The notes beneath the pieces are model-generated. The model searched no databases and was not told the DNA's origin. It was given only the letters and a program-made list of their open reading frames with translations. The position numbers and the translations under genes are program-made. Shown piece by piece: positions 28,587 to 38,081 of a stretch of 51,413 nucleotides of DNA. Within the stretch, counting starts at the first letter, position 1. Every line of letters begins with the position of its first letter. Origin of the DNA: Defluviimonas salinarum (GTDB lineage Bacteria; Pseudomonadota; Alphaproteobacteria; Rhodobacterales; Rhodobacteraceae); contig NZ_JAPDOG010000028.1 in NCBI RefSeq assembly GCF_026013545.1, forward strand, positions 1-51,413, given 5' to 3'.

Positions 28587-29264
28587 ATGGGTGACCGCGT
28601 CGCGGTGTTTGTTGATGGCGACAATATCAATGCGACATTTGCCCTTCCCATCCGCGAAGTTGCGGAGCGTTCGGGCGTTGTGGATGTCATGCGGGTCTAT
28701 ACGGACGCGAGCCGCAACAGCGACTGGCACCAGGCTCGGGGCTACCGTCTCATCCACGCCGGCACCGGCAAGAACGCGGCCGACCTCCTGCTTTCAATAG
28801 ACGCGATGGAAATCGCGCTGACCCAATCTTTCACGACATTCGTCATTGCCAGTTCGGACGGCGACTTCACCCATCTGGCCACCCGCCTGCGCGAGCGCGG
28901 CCTCAAAGTCGTCGGCGCGGGCGAGACGAAGGCGCCCCCGGGGTTTCGTTCGGCCTGCACCACCTTTGCGCTGCTCCGTAGCGCGATCAGCGCTCCCGTC
29001 CCGACAACCTCACCGACCTCACCCGGCGTCACGGAGCTTGACCGCAACATCAGGAAGTTGATCGCCGCCAACAGCACAAACGGCAGCGGCATGCGCATTA
29101 CCGAGCTTGGACCAAAGATGCACATTATGCATGGTGTGCGCATCAGCCAAGCACCTGAGCGTACATGGCGTGCATACCTGTCGAAGCGGACAGCGCTCTA
29201 TGATCTCGACGAACGCGGCCCCGAGGCAAAGGTACGTTTCAAGCGCGAAGGCTTTGTCGAGTAA
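28587..29264 (+). CDS. NYN-domain (LabA/DUF88-type) protein with OST-HTH-like tail
   Basis: A protein of 225 residues. The N-terminal NYN/PIN-like nuclease domain is complete: VFVDGDNIN (Asp10, Asp12), NAADLLLSIDA, and ASSDGDFTHLATRLRERGLKVVG. Residues about 150-225 (LDRNIRKLIAANS ... ITELGPKMHIMHGV ... WRAYLSKRTALYDLD) resemble an OST-HTH/LOTUS RNA-binding domain. Such proteins are putative RNases; the exact role is unknown. The gene and its flanks are noticeably less GC-rich than the rest, with different codon use, suggesting acquisition. It stands alone between pcs and the NifU gene. ATG at 28587 with an ACGGAG-type ribosome binding site. Confidence 0.8.
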   Translation: MGDRVAVFVDGDNINATFALPIREVAERSGVVDVMRVYTDASRNSDWHQARGYRLIHAGTGKNAADLLLSIDAMEIALTQSFTTFVIASSDGDFTHLATRLRERGLKVVGAGETKAPPGFRSACTTFALLRSAISAPVPTTSPTSPGVTELDRNIRKLIAANSTNGSGMRITELGPKMHIMHGVRISQAPERTWRAYLSKRTALYDLDERGPEAKVRFKREGFVE

Positions 29265-31180: not shown

Positions 31181-32170
31181 ATGACCCTCAAGCAGACATT
31201 CCTCGGCGCGGCCGCGACGCTGGCGCTGACCTCCGGCGCCGCGCTGGCCGACCCGGCCCTGATCTTCGATCTCGGCGGCAAGTTCGACAAGTCGTTCAAC
31301 GAGGCCGCCTTCGCCGGCGCCGAACGCTGGAAGGAAGAGACCGGCGGCACCTACAAGGAACTCGAGATGCAGTCCGAGGCCCAGCGCGAACAGGCGCTGC
31401 GCCGGCTCGCCGAGACCGGCGCCAACCCGGTGGTTATGACCGGCTTCGCCTTTGGCGACGTCCTCAACACCGTGGCCCCCGACTTCCCCGACACCAAGTT
31501 CGCGATCATCGACATGGTGGTCGAGCAGCCCAACGTCCGCTCCGTCGTCTTCACCGAGGAGCAGGGATCCTACCTCGTCGGCATGATGGCGGCGATGGCC
31601 TCGAAGACCGGCACCGTGGGCTTCATCGGCGGCATGGACATCCCGCTCATTCGCAAGTTCGCCTGCGGCTATGTGCAGGGCGTGAAGGCCGCCAACCCGG
31701 ACGCCACCGTGATCGAGAACATGACCGGCACCACGCCCGCCGCCTGGAACGACCCGGTGAAGGGCGCCGAGCTCGCCAAGGCGCAGAAGGCGCAAGGTGC
31801 CGACGTGATCTACGCCGCCGCCGGCGGCACCGGGATCGGCGTGCTGCAGGCCGCCGCCGACGAGGGCATCCTCTCGATCGGCGTCGACTCGAACCAGAAC
31901 CACCTGCATCCGGGCAAGGTGCTGACCTCCATGATGAAACGCGTCGACAACGCGGTCTACGAGGCCTTCAAGGCCGGTCCCGACCTTGAAACCGGGATCA
32001 ACGTGATGGACCTCACCGCCGAGGGCGTCGGCTACTCGCTCGACGACAACAACGCGGCCCTCGTCACCGACGAGATGAAGGCGGCCGTGGATGCGGCGGC
32101 CGAGAAGATCAAGTCGGGCGAGATCTCGGTCCACGACTACATGTCCGACAACACCTGCCCGGTGAGCTGA
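31181..32170 (+). CDS. BMP-family (PnrA-like) ABC transporter substrate-binding protein
   Basis: A periplasmic binding protein of 329 residues with a signal peptide (MTLKQTFLGAAATLALTSGAALA). The BMP family hallmark is seen in ALIFDLGGKFDKSFNEAAFAGAERW, TGFAFGDVLNTVAPDFPDTKFAIID, VGFIGGMDIPLIRKFACGYVQGVKAANP and IGVDSNQNHL. BMP proteins mostly bind nucleosides or related bases. It is the first gene of a six-gene operon. Confidence 0.92.
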   Translation: MTLKQTFLGAAATLALTSGAALADPALIFDLGGKFDKSFNEAAFAGAERWKEETGGTYKELEMQSEAQREQALRRLAETGANPVVMTGFAFGDVLNTVAPDFPDTKFAIIDMVVEQPNVRSVVFTEEQGSYLVGMMAAMASKTGTVGFIGGMDIPLIRKFACGYVQGVKAANPDATVIENMTGTTPAAWNDPVKGAELAKAQKAQGADVIYAAAGGTGIGVLQAAADEGILSIGVDSNQNHLHPGKVLTSMMKRVDNAVYEAFKAGPDLETGINVMDLTAEGVGYSLDDNNAALVTDEMKAAVDAAAEKIKSGEISVHDYMSDNTCPVS

Positions 32171-32178
32171 GCCCCGGC

Positions 32179-33744
32179 ATGGCTCAGCGCCTCCAGACGG
32201 AGCGGCAGGCGACTGCCGCTCCCGCCATCGAGCTTCGCGGGATCTCGAAGGCCTTCGGCCCGGTCCAGGCGAACAGGGACATCTCGATCCGCGTCGAGAA
32301 GGGCACGATCCACGGCATCATCGGCGAGAACGGCGCCGGCAAGTCGACGCTGATGTCGATCCTCTACGGCTTCTACAAAGCCGATCGCGGCGAGATTCTC
32401 ATCGACGGCCGCGCGACGCAGATCCCCGACAGCCAGGCCGCGATCCGCGCCGGGATCGGCATGGTCTTCCAGCATTTCAAGCTGGTGCAGAACTTCACCG
32501 TCCTTGAAAATGTCATCCTCGGCGCCGAGGACGGGGCGCTCCTGACCCCCTCGCTCGCCAAGGCGCGCAAGGTGCTTGGCGAACTTGCCGAGGAATACGA
32601 GCTCGACGTCGACCCCGATGCGATGATCGAGGAACTGAGCGTCGGCCACCAGCAGCGGGTGGAGATCCTCAAGGCGCTCTACCGCCACGCCGACATCCTC
32701 ATCCTCGACGAACCGACCGGGGTCCTGACCCCCGCCGAGGCCGATCACCTCTTCCGCATCCTGAAAAACCTCAAGGAGCAGGGCAAGACGATCATCCTGA
32801 TCACCCACAAGCTCCGTGAGATCATGGAGATCACCGACACCGTCAGCGTGATGCGCCGCGGCGAGATGACCGCGACGGTGATGACCGCCGACACCAATCC
32901 CGAGCAGCTCGCCGAGCTGATGGTCGGGCGCAAGGTGCTCCTCAACGTGCCCAAGGGACCGGCGCATCCCGGCCAGACGGTGCTGGAGATCGACAACCTG
33001 CGCGTCACCGACGAGGACGGGGTGGAGCGGCTCAAGGGCATCTCGCTCAAGATCCACGCGGGCGAGATCCTCGGCATCGCCGGGGTCGCCGGCAACGGCC
33101 AGTCCGAGCTTCTGGCCGTCCTCGGCGGCATCGCCCGCGGCACCGGCTCGGTCCGGCTGAACGGCAAGGAGCTTGACCTCACCGGCAACCATTCCGACGG
33201 TCAGTCACGGCGCGCGAACAGCATCGCCCATGTGCCGGAGGATCGCCAGCATCTCGGCATGATCATGGATTTCACCGCGTGGGAGAACGTGGCCTTCGGC
33301 TACCACCACGACCCGGCCTACCAGAAGAACGGCCTTCTGATGGACAACGACGCGATCCTCGCCGACACGGCGGGCAAGATGGAACGCTTCGACGTCCGCC
33401 CGCCGATCCCGACGCTTGCCGCCAAGAGCTTTTCCGGCGGCAACCAGCAGAAGATCATCCTCGCCCGCGAGATCGAGCGGAACCCCGACCTCCTCCTCGT
33501 CGGCCAGCCGACCCGCGGCGTCGACATCGGCGCCATCGAGTTCATCCACAAGCGCATCGTGGAGCTGCGCGATGCGGGCAAGGCGGTGCTCTTGGTCAGC
33601 GTCGAGCTCGACGAGATCATGAGCCTCAGTGACCGCATCGCCGTCATGTTCGACGGCCGCATCATGGGCGAGCGCCTGCCCGAAAAGACCGACGAGCGCG
33701 AACTTGGCCTCCTGATGGCCGGCGTGAGCGGGGCAGCGGCATGA
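32179..33744 (+). CDS. Double-domain ABC transporter ATPase (nucleoside/sugar type)
   Basis: An ATPase of 521 residues with two nucleotide-binding domains, as in RbsA/NupO proteins. First domain: Walker A GENGAGKST, signature LSVGHQQRVEI and Walker B LILDEPTGVL. Second domain: degenerate Walker A GVAGNGQSE, signature FSGGNQQKIILARE and altered Walker B LLLVGQPTRGVD, which lacks the catalytic glutamate; this asymmetry is normal for the family. It overlaps the following cupin gene by 4 bp (ATGA at 33741). Confidence 0.95.
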   Translation: MAQRLQTERQATAAPAIELRGISKAFGPVQANRDISIRVEKGTIHGIIGENGAGKSTLMSILYGFYKADRGEILIDGRATQIPDSQAAIRAGIGMVFQHFKLVQNFTVLENVILGAEDGALLTPSLAKARKVLGELAEEYELDVDPDAMIEELSVGHQQRVEILKALYRHADILILDEPTGVLTPAEADHLFRILKNLKEQGKTIILITHKLREIMEITDTVSVMRRGEMTATVMTADTNPEQLAELMVGRKVLLNVPKGPAHPGQTVLEIDNLRVTDEDGVERLKGISLKIHAGEILGIAGVAGNGQSELLAVLGGIARGTGSVRLNGKELDLTGNHSDGQSRRANSIAHVPEDRQHLGMIMDFTAWENVAFGYHHDPAYQKNGLLMDNDAILADTAGKMERFDVRPPIPTLAAKSFSGGNQQKIILAREIERNPDLLLVGQPTRGVDIGAIEFIHKRIVELRDAGKAVLLVSVELDEIMSLSDRIAVMFDGRIMGERLPEKTDERELGLLMAGVSGAAA

Positions 33745-34340
33745 GCGCAAGGGACCTCTGGCCGGCGGTCCTCGCCCATCTGCGCGGCTGCGACGCCCCG
33801 GCGGCGGAGTTTCTCGACGGGCTGCCACGGGAACCGCAGGAGCGCCCGGCGCCGCCGCCGGCCGACGGGTTCGCTCGCCCTGTGCCCAACGAGCTCGACC
33901 GGCTCGCCGATACCGCCCCGGCCGAGACCCGCGCGCTCTGCGCCGCCATAGCCGCAGAGGCGGCGCGCCTGAGCTGGCGGTCGAGCTACACGACCGCCGA
34001 TGTCGGCGCCTTCGCCACCGGCTATGCCTGGGCGCCGATCGCCGCGCCGGACGGGCCGCTTGTCATTCCATCCGGCCTGGTCTGCATCATGCATATCGGG
34101 CCGCGCCTGCACTACCCGCCTCACCGCCACGAGCCCGAGGAGCTATATGCCGTGCTGGCCGGCAACGCCGTCTTCAGTTCCGACCGCTCGCCCCGCACCC
34201 GGCTCGGCCCGGGTGCGCTCCGCCATCACGCGCCCTACGAGACCCATTCGATGGATACCGACGACAGCGCCGCGCTGGTTCTCGCGCTCTGGAAGGGCAG
34301 CTACAGGAAATCCGAGATCGTGAAGACGGAGGCGACATGA
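33741..34340 (+). CDS. Cupin protein of the DMSP lyase (DddQ/DddL) family
   Basis: A protein of 199 residues with a helical N-terminal region and a C-terminal cupin. Cupin motif 1 reads G120-x7-H128-R-H130-x3-E134-L-Y136-x4-G141 and motif 2 is PGALRHHAPYETHSM (His162, His163, His169). The sequence around HEPEELY and HHAPYETHSM ... ALWKG closely follows DMSP lyases of the DddQ type (about 200 residues), which split dimethylsulfoniopropionate into dimethyl sulfide and acrylate using a metal ion. Family assignment is fairly firm; activity on DMSP is not. It overlaps the ATPase gene and the permease gene by 4 bp each, so it is a true operon member. Confidence 0.75.
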   Translation: MSARDLWPAVLAHLRGCDAPAAEFLDGLPREPQERPAPPPADGFARPVPNELDRLADTAPAETRALCAAIAAEAARLSWRSSYTTADVGAFATGYAWAPIAAPDGPLVIPSGLVCIMHIGPRLHYPPHRHEPEELYAVLAGNAVFSSDRSPRTRLGPGALRHHAPYETHSMDTDDSAALVLALWKGSYRKSEIVKTEAT

Positions 34341-35443
34341 AGCGACTTCCCGACTGGGCCGATGTGGTCCTCGTGCCCCTGATCAGCGTGGTCCTCGCCT
34401 TCGTGATCTCGGCGCTCGTGATCCTCGCCATCGGCGAAAACCCGGTGGAAGCCTTGCAGATCATGCTCACCGGCGCGCTCGGCTCGGCCTATGGCTGGGG
34501 CTACACGCTCTACTATGCCACCAACTTCATGTTCACCGGGCTCGCCGTGGCGGTCGCCTTCCACGCCAGCCAGTTCAACATCGGCGGCGAGGGGCAGGCG
34601 ACCTTGGGCGGCCTCGGCGTCGCGGTGGTCTGCCTCGCCTTCGACTGGCCGCACTGGACGCTGGCGCTCGCCGCAGCGACGGTGGGCGCGGCGGTTTTCG
34701 GCGCCGCCTGGGCGGCGGTGCCAGCCTGGCTTCAGGCCAAGCGCGGCAGCCATATCGTGATCACCACGATCATGTTCAACTTCATCGGCGCCTCACTGCT
34801 GAACTACCTCCTGGTCAACGTGATGCGGCCGGTGGGCTCGATGGATCCCGCGACCGCGCGGTTCCCGGCGGGCGCGAAGCTGCCCACGCTCTTCGACATG
34901 ACCTCGGCCCTCGGCATGCCCCTCTTCAAGAGCACGCCCGTCAACGTCACGCTCTTCATCGCGCTCGCCGCCTGCGTCGCGGTCTGGCTTCTCATCTGGC
35001 GCACGCGGCTCGGCTACATGATCCGCGCCTTCGGCCGGTCGGAGCCGGCCGCCGTCTACGCCGGGATCTCGCCGGTCAAGATCACCATGTACGCGCTCCT
35101 CATCTCCGGCGCGCTCGCGGGGATGATGGCGATCAACGCGACGATGGGCGAGCAGAAGCGGCTCATCCTCAACGCGGTCGAGGGCGCGGGCTTCATCGGC
35201 ATCGCGGTTGCGCTGATGGGCCGCTCGCATCCGTTCGGAGTGTTCCTCGCCGCCCTTCTCTTCGGCTTCCTCTTCCAGGGCGGGGCCGAGCTCGCGCTCT
35301 GGACGACGATCCCGCGCGAGCTCATCACCGTGATCCAGGCGCTGGTGATCCTCTTCACCGGCGCGCTCGACAACATGGTGCGGATGCCGCTCGAACGCCT
35401 CTTCCTCGCGCTCAGGCGCCCCGACGGGGAGGCGCGGCGATGA
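34337..35443 (+). CDS. ABC transporter permease (BPD_transp_2 type), first subunit
   Basis: A membrane protein of 368 residues with about nine to ten helices. It has the features of the nucleoside/branched-chain-type permeases: FTGLAVAVAFHASQFNIGGEGQATLGG and GAGFIGIAVALMGRSHPFGVFLAALLFG. It pairs with the permease at 36070. The ATG overlaps the cupin stop by 4 bp and its own stop overlaps the LysE start by 4 bp. Confidence 0.92.
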   Translation: MKRLPDWADVVLVPLISVVLAFVISALVILAIGENPVEALQIMLTGALGSAYGWGYTLYYATNFMFTGLAVAVAFHASQFNIGGEGQATLGGLGVAVVCLAFDWPHWTLALAAATVGAAVFGAAWAAVPAWLQAKRGSHIVITTIMFNFIGASLLNYLLVNVMRPVGSMDPATARFPAGAKLPTLFDMTSALGMPLFKSTPVNVTLFIALAACVAVWLLIWRTRLGYMIRAFGRSEPAAVYAGISPVKITMYALLISGALAGMMAINATMGEQKRLILNAVEGAGFIGIAVALMGRSHPFGVFLAALLFGFLFQGGAELALWTTIPRELITVIQALVILFTGALDNMVRMPLERLFLALRRPDGEARR

Positions 35444-36066
35444 CCGAGTACCTGCCGCAGCTTCTCCTCGCCTGGTCGATCCAGGCCGTCGGCATCGCCT
35501 CCCCCGGCCCGTCGGTCGCGCTGATCCTCGGCGTCGCGACCAGCCGCGGCCGGATGCCCGCCGTCACCACCGCCTTCGGCGTCGCCTGCGGCTCGATCAT
35601 CCTGTCGCTCGCGACCGTGATCGGGATTGCGGCCCTCTTTGCGCAGGTGGCGGAGCTGATGACGCTCATCCGCGCGATCGGCGCGGGCTACCTCCTCTGG
35701 CTCGCCTGGCGCGCCTTCGGCAAGGCGCTGAACCCCGTGCCGCTCGATCTCACGGCGACCCCGCCGAAAAGCCTCACCCGCACCGCGCTCGCGGGGTTCC
35801 TGCTTCAGGTCTCGAACCCCAAGGCGATCCTCTTCTGGCTCGCGATCGCCTCCGCCGGCGGCGTCGGCGACGCGCCCCTGCCCGTCATCGCCTTCTTCGT
35901 GGTCGGAACCTTCGTCAATTCCTTCGCCGGCCACGCCGCCTATGCGCTCCTTCTGTCCTCCCGCCCGGTCCGCGCCGCCTATGGGCGCGCCCGCCGCTGG
36001 ATCGAGGCCGGGCTCGGCGGCGTCTTCACCTTCGCCGCCTTCACGCTGGCCACGTCGAGGAGCTGA
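35440..36066 (+). CDS. LysE-family translocator (amino acid/metabolite exporter)
   Basis: An exporter of 208 residues with about six helices. The N-terminus holds the LysE signature ASPGPSVALILGVATSRGRMPAV (PGP-containing) and the middle holds GFLLQVSNPKAILFW. LysE/RhtB proteins export amino acids and related compounds. It lies between the two permease genes (4-bp overlap upstream, 3 bp gap downstream), an unusual place for an exporter within an import operon. Confidence 0.9.
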   Translation: MTEYLPQLLLAWSIQAVGIASPGPSVALILGVATSRGRMPAVTTAFGVACGSIILSLATVIGIAALFAQVAELMTLIRAIGAGYLLWLAWRAFGKALNPVPLDLTATPPKSLTRTALAGFLLQVSNPKAILFWLAIASAGGVGDAPLPVIAFFVVGTFVNSFAGHAAYALLLSSRPVRAAYGRARRWIEAGLGGVFTFAAFTLATSRS

Positions 36067-36069
36067 GCC

Positions 36070-37035
36070 ATGGACTACGCCACCATCCTCCAGATCCTCG
36101 ACTCCACGGTGCGGCTCGGCACGCCCCTGCTCCTGGCCTGCCTCGCCGGGCTTTTTTCCGAGCGCGCGGGCATCTTCGACATCGGGCTCGAGGGCAAGAT
36201 GCTGATGGCGGGCTTCGCCGCCGCCGCCATCGCGGCGGTGAGCGGCTCGGTCTGGATCGGCGTCGCGGCGGGGCTCTGCGCCTCCCTCGCGCTGGCGCTT
36301 TTGCACGGGCTTGCCTCCATCACCTTCCGCGGCAACCAGCTCATCTCGGGCGTCGCGATCAACTTCCTCGCCTCGGGGCTCACCGTGCTCATCGGCCAGA
36401 AGTGGTTCGCGCTTGGCGGGCGGACGCCCTCCCTCGAAGGCGCCGCGCGCTTCGCGCCCATCGAGTTGCCGTTCGCCGAGGTGCTGCTGCCCGTCCCCGT
36501 GGCCGGCCCCCTCTACCGCGAGCTCATCTCCGGCCATTCGGTCCTCGTCTACGTCGCCTTCGCCGCGGTGCCAGCCGCCTGGTGGGTGCTCTACCGCTCG
36601 CGCTTCGGCCTCAGGCTCCGGGCGGTGGGCGAGAACCCGGCGGCGGTCGACACCGCCGGGATCTCGGTCGTCAGGATGCGCTACGCGGCGGTGGCGATCT
36701 GCGGGCTTCTCTGCGGGCTCGCCGGCGCCTATCTCGCGACCGGGCTCTCGGCCGGCTTCGTGAAGGAGATGACGGCGGGGCGCGGCTACATCGCGCTTGC
36801 CGCGCTCATCTTCGCGAAGTGGCGGCCGTGGTACGCGCTCGGCGCCACGATGCTCTTCGGCCTCCTCGAAGCCATCGCCAACCGCTACCAGAACATCGAC
36901 CTCGGCGCCGTCGTGCTGCCGGTCCAGTTCATGCAGGCCCTGCCCTATATCCTGACCGTGGTGATCCTCGCCGGTTTCGTCGGCCGCGCCATCCCGCCAC
37001 GCGCGGGCGGCGAGCCCTATGTCAAGGAACGCTAG
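36070..37035 (+). CDS. ABC transporter permease (BPD_transp_2 type), second subunit
   Basis: A membrane protein of 321 residues with about nine helices; key family stretches are GLFSERAGIFDIGLEGKML, NQLISGVAINFLASG, LRAVGENPAAVDTAGI and GRGYIALAALIFAKWRP. The EGKM and GENPxAxxTAGI motifs are typical of the second permease in nucleoside transporters (YufQ/NupQ-like). With the other permease, the ATPase and the BMP protein it completes the importer. Confidence 0.93.
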   Translation: MDYATILQILDSTVRLGTPLLLACLAGLFSERAGIFDIGLEGKMLMAGFAAAAIAAVSGSVWIGVAAGLCASLALALLHGLASITFRGNQLISGVAINFLASGLTVLIGQKWFALGGRTPSLEGAARFAPIELPFAEVLLPVPVAGPLYRELISGHSVLVYVAFAAVPAAWWVLYRSRFGLRLRAVGENPAAVDTAGISVVRMRYAAVAICGLLCGLAGAYLATGLSAGFVKEMTAGRGYIALAALIFAKWRPWYALGATMLFGLLEAIANRYQNIDLGAVVLPVQFMQALPYILTVVILAGFVGRAIPPRAGGEPYVKER

Positions 37036-37127: not shown

Positions 37128-37163
37128 TTGACTAGGGTTTTCACCGGCAACAGCGGCATCCCA

Positions 37164-38081
37164 ATGCAGATCTATCTGCCCATCGCCGAGGTATCCGTCA
37201 ACGCGTTCCTGCTTCTGGGGCTGGGCGGCATTGTCGGCATGCTGTCGGGCATGTTCGGGGTCGGCGGCGGCTTCCTGATGACGCCGCTCCTGTTCTTCAT
37301 CGGCATCCCGCCCGCCGTCGCGGTGGCGACCGAGGCGAACCAGATCGTCGCCTCCTCGTTTTCCGGCGTGCTCGCGCATCTCAAGCGCAAGACGGTGGAC
37401 CTGAGGATGGGTACCGTGCTCCTCGTCGGCGGCCTTGTCGGCGCGGCCGTTGGGGTACAGGTCTTCGCGATGCTGCGTAGCCTCGGCCAGGTCGATCTCC
37501 TGGTGAAGCTCTGCTACGTCGTCTTCCTCGGCATCATCGGGCTTCTGATGTTCGTCGAGAGCCTGCGCGCGATCCGCCGTGCCAAGAAGACCGGCACCGC
37601 GCCGGCGCGCAAGAAGCACAACTGGATTCATAACCTGCCGCTGAAGATGAAGTTCCGCACCTCGGGCCTTTATATCTCGGTCATCCCGCCGCTCATCGTC
37701 GGCGTGCTCGTGGGCGTCCTCGCGGCAATCATGGGCGTGGGCGGCGGCTTCATCATGGTGCCGGCGATGATCTACCTCCTCGGCATGCCGACCAAGGTCG
37801 TGGTCGGCACCTCGCTCTTCCAGATCATCTTCGTCACCGGCTTCACGACGCTTCTCCATGCGACGATGAACTACACGGTCGATCTTCCGCTCGCCGTGCT
37901 TCTGCTCGTCGGTGGCGTGGTCGGCGCGCAGTTCGGTGCGATGATCGGCACAAGGCTCAAGGCCGAACAGCTTCGGATCCTGCTCGCGGTGATGGTGCTT
38001 GCGGTCTGCGCCAAGCTGGCGCTCGATCTCCTGCTGACGCCGTCCGAGATCTACTCGCTCGGACCGGTGGGGCACGCATGA
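37164..38081 (+). CDS. TSUP (TauE/SafE) sulfite/organosulfur exporter family protein
   Basis: A membrane protein of 305 residues with about eight helices in two homologous halves, each starting with a glycine motif: GIVGMLSGMFGVGGGFLMTPLL and GVLAAIMGVGGGFIMVPAMI. TSUP members move sulfite, sulfoacetate and related anions. Start ATG at 37164; the upstream TTG at 37128 has no support. It overlaps the next gene by 4 bp (ATGA). Confidence 0.9.
   Translation: MQIYLPIAEVSVNAFLLLGLGGIVGMLSGMFGVGGGFLMTPLLFFIGIPPAVAVATEANQIVASSFSGVLAHLKRKTVDLRMGTVLLVGGLVGAAVGVQVFAMLRSLGQVDLLVKLCYVVFLGIIGLLMFVESLRAIRRAKKTGTAPARKKHNWIHNLPLKMKFRTSGLYISVIPPLIVGVLVGVLAAIMGVGGGFIMVPAMIYLLGMPTKVVVGTSLFQIIFVTGFTTLLHATMNYTVDLPLAVLLLVGGVVGAQFGAMIGTRLKAEQLRILLAVMVLAVCAKLALDLLLTPSEIYSLGPVGHA

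Follow-up and report, generated by a model that had tools for sequence, protein, structure and literature searches.

DddQ-type enzymes release DMS, the gas that smells of the sea, and work by Lei et al. from 2018, cited in PMC8163506, is said, by its title, to treat a family of cupin DMSP lyases and lyase-like proteins, in which members of unknown function stand beside the lyases. In DddQ, Y120, H123, H125, E129, Y131 and H163 were described as essential active-site residues (PMC4437653), and most DddQ enzymes assayed in E. coli cleaved more DMSOP than DMSP when both were present, as stated in PMC10686828. The cupin analysed here shares with the DddQ proteins of R. lacuscaerulensis (PDB 4la2/5jso), R. 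nubinhibens (PDB 4b29) and R. pomeroyi (PDB 5cu1) the predicted fold over the whole length, the six active-site residues, the size and the Pfam family PF16867. They differ in sequence, with 25-29% identity in the fold alignments, as well as in gene neighbourhood, and the cupin falls outside the DddQ clade. With the wider family of lyases and lyase-like proteins it has in common a metal cupin with the motif H-x-H-x3-E-x-Y, whereas it is a lone divergent member located inside an importer operon.

Two further systems resemble the locus in gene content. BMP-type nucleoside importers presumably include the nupABC system of R. pomeroyi (SPO0376-0379), which was reported to import thymidine and to be well conserved in roseobacters (PMC10130141). 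BMP-type importers share the BMP protein, the double ATPase and the two permeases with the present locus, and SPO0376-0379 would be the BMP-type orthologue of the present operon, which differs in two extra genes (cupin and LysE) and in a permease half that appears to have been replaced. The other system is a putative betaine-demethylation cluster (RpiR, Rieske, DAO-GcvT, Zn-dehydrogenase, enolase superfamily and aminotransferase), the home of many kin of the cupin; by contrast, the cupin gene described here sits outside such a cluster, in the importer operon.

A cupin gene within a BMP-type importer operon

The window is the whole analysed stretch of 51,413 nt from Defluviimonas salinarum. Its features relevant to the operon are as follows.

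31181..32170, plus strand: BMP/PnrA-type substrate-binding protein of the importer, congener-type (PF02608, 212.7 bits)
32179..33744, plus strand: double ABC ATPase, congener-type up to its C-terminus (PF00005, two stretches)
33741..34340, plus strand: cupin ORF of 199 residues, DMSP-lyase-like and of the DddQ branch (from the ORF, Pfam, alignments, trees and predicted fold)
34113..34148, plus strand: codons Y125 to Y136, the first cupin motif with Y125, H128, H130, E134 and Y136 (sequence, translation and alignments)
34227..34247, plus strand: codons H163 to H169, the second His pair, H169 corresponding to DddQ H163 (translation and alignments)
34337..35443, plus strand: ABC permease 1, of an ancestry unlike that of the congeners (PF02653)
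35440..36066, plus strand: LysE-type exporter gene between the permeases (PF01810)
36070..37035, plus strand: ABC permease 2, of an ancestry unlike that of the congeners (PF02653)
33741..37035, plus strand: distal block of cupin, permease 1, LysE and permease 2, the putative replacement of the native permease half (from the identity switch and trees)
37128..38081, plus strand: TauE/SafE family membrane protein, downstream and outside the proposed block (PF01925)

The gene order is thus BMP binding protein, double ATPase, cupin, permease 1, LysE-type exporter and permease 2, followed by TauE-type and Alph_Pro_TM genes, of which the TauE/SafE gene stays in place in most relatives compared. With the end of the ATPase at 33744 and the start of permease 1 at 34337, the cupin gene has a 4-bp ATGA overlap on either side. 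The earlier note had already read these overlaps, the BMP family of the binding protein and the DMSP-lyase family of the cupin, and all three hold in the ORF coordinates and Pfam matches; the LysE-type gene was absent from it. The overlaps should tie the expression of the cupin to that of the importer, but such coupling does not imply that the cupin acts on the importer's cargo. Elsewhere in the window, the ORF at 28587-29264 may, as judged by eye, encode an NYN/PIN-type nuclease domain protein.

A BMP binding protein, a double ATPase and two BPD_transp_2 permeases in one operon identify the importer as BMP-type, and the best matches of the binding protein among PDB sequences include BMP-type proteins. 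The nearest named NCBIfam models for the binding protein, the ATPase and the permeases are those of a B6 ABC importer (NF047927-NF047930), and all four scores are far below the cut-offs (85.7 versus 400, 406.5 versus 670, 130.5 versus 400 and 163.4 versus 465). Members of a nucleoside-phosphorylase-family gene cluster, one of them checked by Pfam, are found in 11 of 34 relatives' loci. In L104, L118, L122 and L128, a phosphorylase-family gene follows permease 2; in L131, a cytidine deaminase separates the two. A DeoC aldolase lies downstream in L129, and the deaminase and DeoC each occur in one locus. By analogy with these loci, the cargo is predicted to be a nucleoside, which we regard as likely. 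The earlier note had also considered an importer of an unexpected substrate, such as an osmolyte or a DMSP-like compound. Because the binding protein matches those of 17 cupin-less congeners at 82-90% identity and nucleoside-salvage genes adjoin the operon in relatives, a new substrate is unlikely, and we rejected this proposal.

Active site, predicted fold and phylogenetic placement of the cupin

The Pfam family DMSP_lyase (PF16867) matches the cupin at 67.6 bits (cut-off 27, E 1.4e-18), whereas no NCBIfam family was found at E 0.001. A search against PDB sequences (E 0.01) returned five matches, all of them DddQ or DMSP-lyase chains, with E values of 1e-21 to 2e-14. The predicted structure, modelled from 21 sequences, has a mean pLDDT of 91.5, and its comparison against the PDB gave DddQ chains for all top six hits, with TM scores of 0.75-0.83 normalized to the query, followed by DddY at 0.52. 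On this predicted model the cupin adopts the fold of DddQ.

The six active-site residues of DddQ correspond in the alignments to Y125, H128, H130, E134, Y136 and H169 of the cupin, all of which are kept; the motif H128-x-H130-x3-E134-x-Y136 and the second His set (H163 and H169) are intact, as had been noticed before. Among 57 aligned kin, hand-picked from the DddQ group and a second group of the first tree (see below), Y125, H128, E134, Y136 and H169 are identical in all 57 and H130 in 56. Conservation among these kin reaches 85% or more at 23 positions, of which the cupin keeps 19, including every metal-binding or catalytic one; it deviates at positions 92, 96, 113 and 177, with the loss of an Arg at 113 (L113). 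This loss was considered as a sign of lost lyase activity and dropped, as the R. pomeroyi DddQ also lacks the Arg in the alignment. The identity of the active-site residues across kin and the match of the predicted fold to DddQ indicate that the cupin is no chance ORF. Judged from its residues, the catalytic apparatus is intact, and the protein is probably catalytically competent.

The first tree comprised 94 rows, namely 92 homologues with one fragment dropped and three PDB sequences added. In it, the cupin has a branch length of 2.03 and falls within a 58-row group (support 97/96) that unites the DddQ group with a second group, which we gave the working name NL. A second tree was built from 47 of these rows, with the tested groups named after the first tree; long branches, that of the cupin being 1.76, weaken placement in it. 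The 23-row DddQ group, which contains all three PDB DddQ sequences, is supported at 99/96 without the cupin, and the cupin joins its base at 84/76. Placement of the cupin with the NL group (p 0.178) or with the outgroups (p 0.149) was not rejected. Placement inside the DddQ crown was rejected (p 0.0089, given the group names taken from the first tree and the long cupin branch). Hence, the cupin does not group with the solved DddQ enzymes, and these trees describe it as a divergent lyase-like cupin outside the DddQ clade as sampled. The earlier note had made the DMSP link depend on a place in the DMSP-lyase clade; the cupin lies outside the 23-row DddQ clade, yet it joins the base of this clade in the second tree (84/76), and the NL and outgroup placements were not rejected.

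The kin of the cupin have a recurrent gene context. Among 29 loci with DddQ- or NL-group cupins (three duplicates dropped, some loci short; 17 of 18 loci of another set, mostly with more distant cupins, left out), 13 hold a DAO-GcvT demethylase gene that marks the betaine-demethylation cluster. The marked cluster has a Zn-dehydrogenase gene, up to four enolase-superfamily genes, a class III aminotransferase gene, and divergent RpiR and Rieske GbcA-like genes; these families were assigned on one locus (L149), and the label "betaine" is suggested by them. A literature search for papers joining DddQ with mandelate racemase found none, and one on a DddQ/Rieske/proline betaine gene cluster found none on this cluster among the titles and abstract openings.

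In the congener G005 (L033), the cluster cupin is flanked by the dehydrogenase gene on one side and the first of the enolase-type genes on the other. The genome of the window has a betaine cluster (L188, contig C12) without a cupin and without room for one, and the same holds for the cluster of G011 (L191). The cluster is thus common to the three genomes and the cupin present in G005's copy only. Acting in trans, the window cupin might take the place of the absent cluster cupin. However, G011 has no cupin match at E 1e-14 elsewhere in its genome, and the cluster can therefore do without one. Derivation of the window cupin as a copy moved from the genus's own betaine cluster was rejected: a sister relationship to the G005 cluster cupin has p 0.013, and the two cupins share 37% identity, whereas seven of the eight betaine-cluster proteins found in the window's genome are 85-92% identical to those of G005 (RpiR, 48%). 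The same genome has 14 DAO-GcvT-type demethylase matches at E 1e-60 or better, indicating a broad catabolism of N-methyl compounds.

Distribution of the cupin and ancestry of the two operon halves

Distant members of the cupin family are not rare: they were found in 33 of 101 relatives at E 1e-3 and in 104 of 394 family genomes at E 1e-8, and the window's own genome has two more, with 28% and 38% identity over part of the sequence. Close relatives are lacking in the genomes scanned. At E 1e-14, the 22 genomes of the genus gave the window cupin itself and that of G005 (37%). The best other match is 42% in 394 family genomes, 41% in 385 genomes of the class and 39%, at the limit used, in 398 genomes of the phylum, with at most eight first-look candidates scored per genome in these three scans. 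When 84,980 species genomes, perhaps without the window's own record, were scanned with an alignment of five rows and a match to one of two short patterns was required, 25 relatives were obtained, the best at 44%; no relative above 44% identity was found across the genomes scanned. A plasmid search returned three records with a best identity of 32%, and four pattern stretches on viral contigs included no relative. In view of the long branch and the absence of any relative above 44%, the cupin may be drifting or changed in function.

The survey of gene order proposed in the earlier note, with one genome per species, found the arrangement only here, as none of 73 ATPase/permease junctions of relatives holds a cupin. 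Of the first 33 junctions, 22 overlap, eight lie within 23 nt and three have gaps of 72-284 nt, distances being taken up to the permease residue at which the alignment begins; L133, which is among these three, aligns only from residue 17. The further 40 comprise 14 overlaps, 24 gaps within 40 nt and two of 112-160 nt. The permease junctions of L126, L229 and L251 carry insertions of 112-284 nt without a cupin. A permease 1 match is present in 372 of the 394 family genomes, making the importer near universal; among the matches listed there, inspection by eye found no other cupin match within 10 kb of a permease 1 match, the nearest spacing being about 14 kb (G109). The earlier note held that a cupin confined to this strain would weaken a functional role. 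At this site the cupin was indeed seen in this genome only, and the family as such is more widespread.

Other genes have entered the operon in relatives. At the same ATPase/permease 1 junction, L102 (G020, same genus) has a 90-residue ORF without a Pfam match (E 0.001), which shares 1 nt with the ATPase gene and 4 nt with that of permease 1. This unrelated ORF indicates that the junction gained unrelated genes more than once. A glyoxalase/VOC-type gene, checked by Pfam in the L128 copy only, lies between the binding protein and the ATPase in L128 and L132 (G035 and G029).

For the ancestry of the operon, 48 operons were compared: 17 from congeners, representing 17 of the 21 other genus genomes (G004, G006, G007 and G009 left out), and 31 from other genera, partly chosen for a close permease 1. 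The binding protein of the window is 82-90% identical to those of the congeners with a mean of 85.6%, similar to the congeners among themselves (80-98%, mean 85.2%). The same applies to the ATPase, with 84-90% (mean 87.4%) against 81-97% (mean 87.2%). By contrast, permease 1 shares 71-75% (mean 73.2%) with the congeners, which share 83-97% (mean 88.0%) with one another, and permease 2 shares 71-74% (mean 72.3%) against 83-99% (mean 88.6%), whereas the highest identities to other genera are 82% for permease 1 and 85% for permease 2. The operon L254 of another genus is also near the window in its binding protein (88%) and ATPase (86%).

Quick trees of the binding protein and of the ATPase unite the window with the congeners, at unstarred supports of 85 and 79, respectively. 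Grouping with the congeners was rejected for permease 1, with a log-likelihood 85.9 lower (p 9e-11), as well as for permease 2, with a log-likelihood 88.8 lower (p 5.5e-4). Compared in 40-residue bins, the ATPase is nearer on average to the congeners than to the others up to its end, whereas permease 1 is not consistently so; the binned identities thus put the switch of ancestry between the end of the ATPase and permease 1, at the site of the cupin. On these comparisons the operon is a mosaic of a congener-type proximal half and a permease half of other ancestry, and this seam is the strongest new fact of the present analysis. We rejected the idea that contamination or misassembly had produced the arrangement as a whole, given that synteny is conserved on both sides and that the binding protein and ATPase are at congener level.

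Most simply, another genus would have supplied a new permease half, the cupin coming along with it or at its edge. The replacement may instead have happened in the ancestor of the congeners. None of the 48 operons, the closest permease relatives included, has a cupin, which argues for an unsampled donor. The cupin would have arrived in one event with the permeases, and LysE perhaps as well. A LysE gene separates the permeases in two of the 17 congener operons and in four of the 31 others; the window LysE is nearest to that of a congener (75%), which fits poorly with one simple foreign block. Such genes occur in L108, L109, L118, L259, L260 and L273, from several genera, with mutual identities of 36-75%. 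No PDB match to LysE was found at E 0.001.

Candidate roles of the cupin

The reading we favour, with moderate confidence, is that the cupin is a metal-dependent beta-eliminase of the DddQ branch that entered a conserved nucleoside-importer operon together with a foreign half-operon, at the seam between old and new genes. The cupin probably came with the borrowed half-operon rather than marking a new DMSP importer.

A divergent DddQ that works as a DMSP (or DMSOP) lyase, providing a cleavage branch beside DmdA, would agree with the retention of all six catalytic residues and with DddQ being by far the best match in fold and sequence. Moreover, the same genome has a DmdA of 581.6 bits (curated cut-off 410) and, beginning 19 nt after it, an AcuI-like match of 414.3 bits, just under the cut-off of 440; from this adjoining pair, the organism probably handles DMSP. 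However, dmdA is on contig C1 and does not adjoin the cupin, which is on contig C21. The remaining genes of the operon encode the importer and the exporter, none pointing to DMSP, and the cupin is outside the clade of the three solved DddQ sequences used. In addition, the six residues are common to nearly all aligned kin and hence do not single out DMSP lyases. We consider this role unlikely; cleavage of DMSP or DMSOP may be a side activity of the cupin.

Rather improbable, too, is action on the importer's cargo, in which beta-elimination or a similar reaction on a modified nucleoside or its product would feed salvage. The overlaps with the importer genes and the nucleoside-salvage genes linked to the operon in relatives are in line with it, and there are precedents in other families: Pac13 is a nucleoside dehydratase with a likely E1cB mechanism, described as cofactor independent (PMC5656905), and a cupin-type methylsulfurylase acts in methylthioadenosine salvage (PMC5893883). 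Yet all 73 relatives' operons read so far have no cupin, the binding protein is unchanged from that of the congeners, and Pac13, besides needing no cofactor, is like the methylsulfurylase cited as belonging to another family.

We likewise give little credence to the cupin being a passenger, carried along on the transferred segment, that has no function now and is drifting with its frame still open. Its occurrence in one genome only and its long branch would be expected of a passenger, as would a third-position GC of 0.86 (0.92-0.95 in the importer genes), four rare-set codons in 199, and the four deviating positions of 23, including the Arg (L113). Against it stand the other 19 positions with every metal-binding and catalytic residue kept, a reading frame without a stop or frameshift, the high-confidence predicted fold, and the R. 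pomeroyi DddQ, which is likewise without the Arg. More doubtful still is an unsampled lineage whose BMP importer has a built-in DddQ-like cupin and LysE, the cupin beta-eliminating an imported nucleoside derivative or a co-carried sulfonium compound, the exporter removing the product, and the whole module being received as one block.

For the favoured beta-eliminase, we propose that the distal half of the operon (permease 1, permease 2 and perhaps LysE) was replaced horizontally and that the cupin entered at the seam, arriving in the same event as the permeases. As in the mechanism put forward for DddQ, DddW and DddK, His and Glu side chains would bind a divalent metal, on which the carboxylate of the substrate would sit. 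A Tyr, either Y136 or Y125, would then serve as the base that takes the alpha proton, after which the beta substituent would leave. Our best guess, and the likeliest class of substrate, would be small osmolyte- or betaine-type carboxylates with a beta substituent, since the kin of the cupin, relatives of about 30-44% identity, often sit in the betaine-demethylation cluster.

The locus clearly illustrates how a gene can be added between two overlapping genes, at the point where half an operon has been exchanged between genera. Annotation tends to label PF16867 proteins DMSP lyases, and estimates of how much DMS the sea produces can draw on these labels. With many kin in a betaine cluster and a divergent member in an unrelated importer operon, the family label together with an intact active site is insufficient to infer DMSP cleavage.
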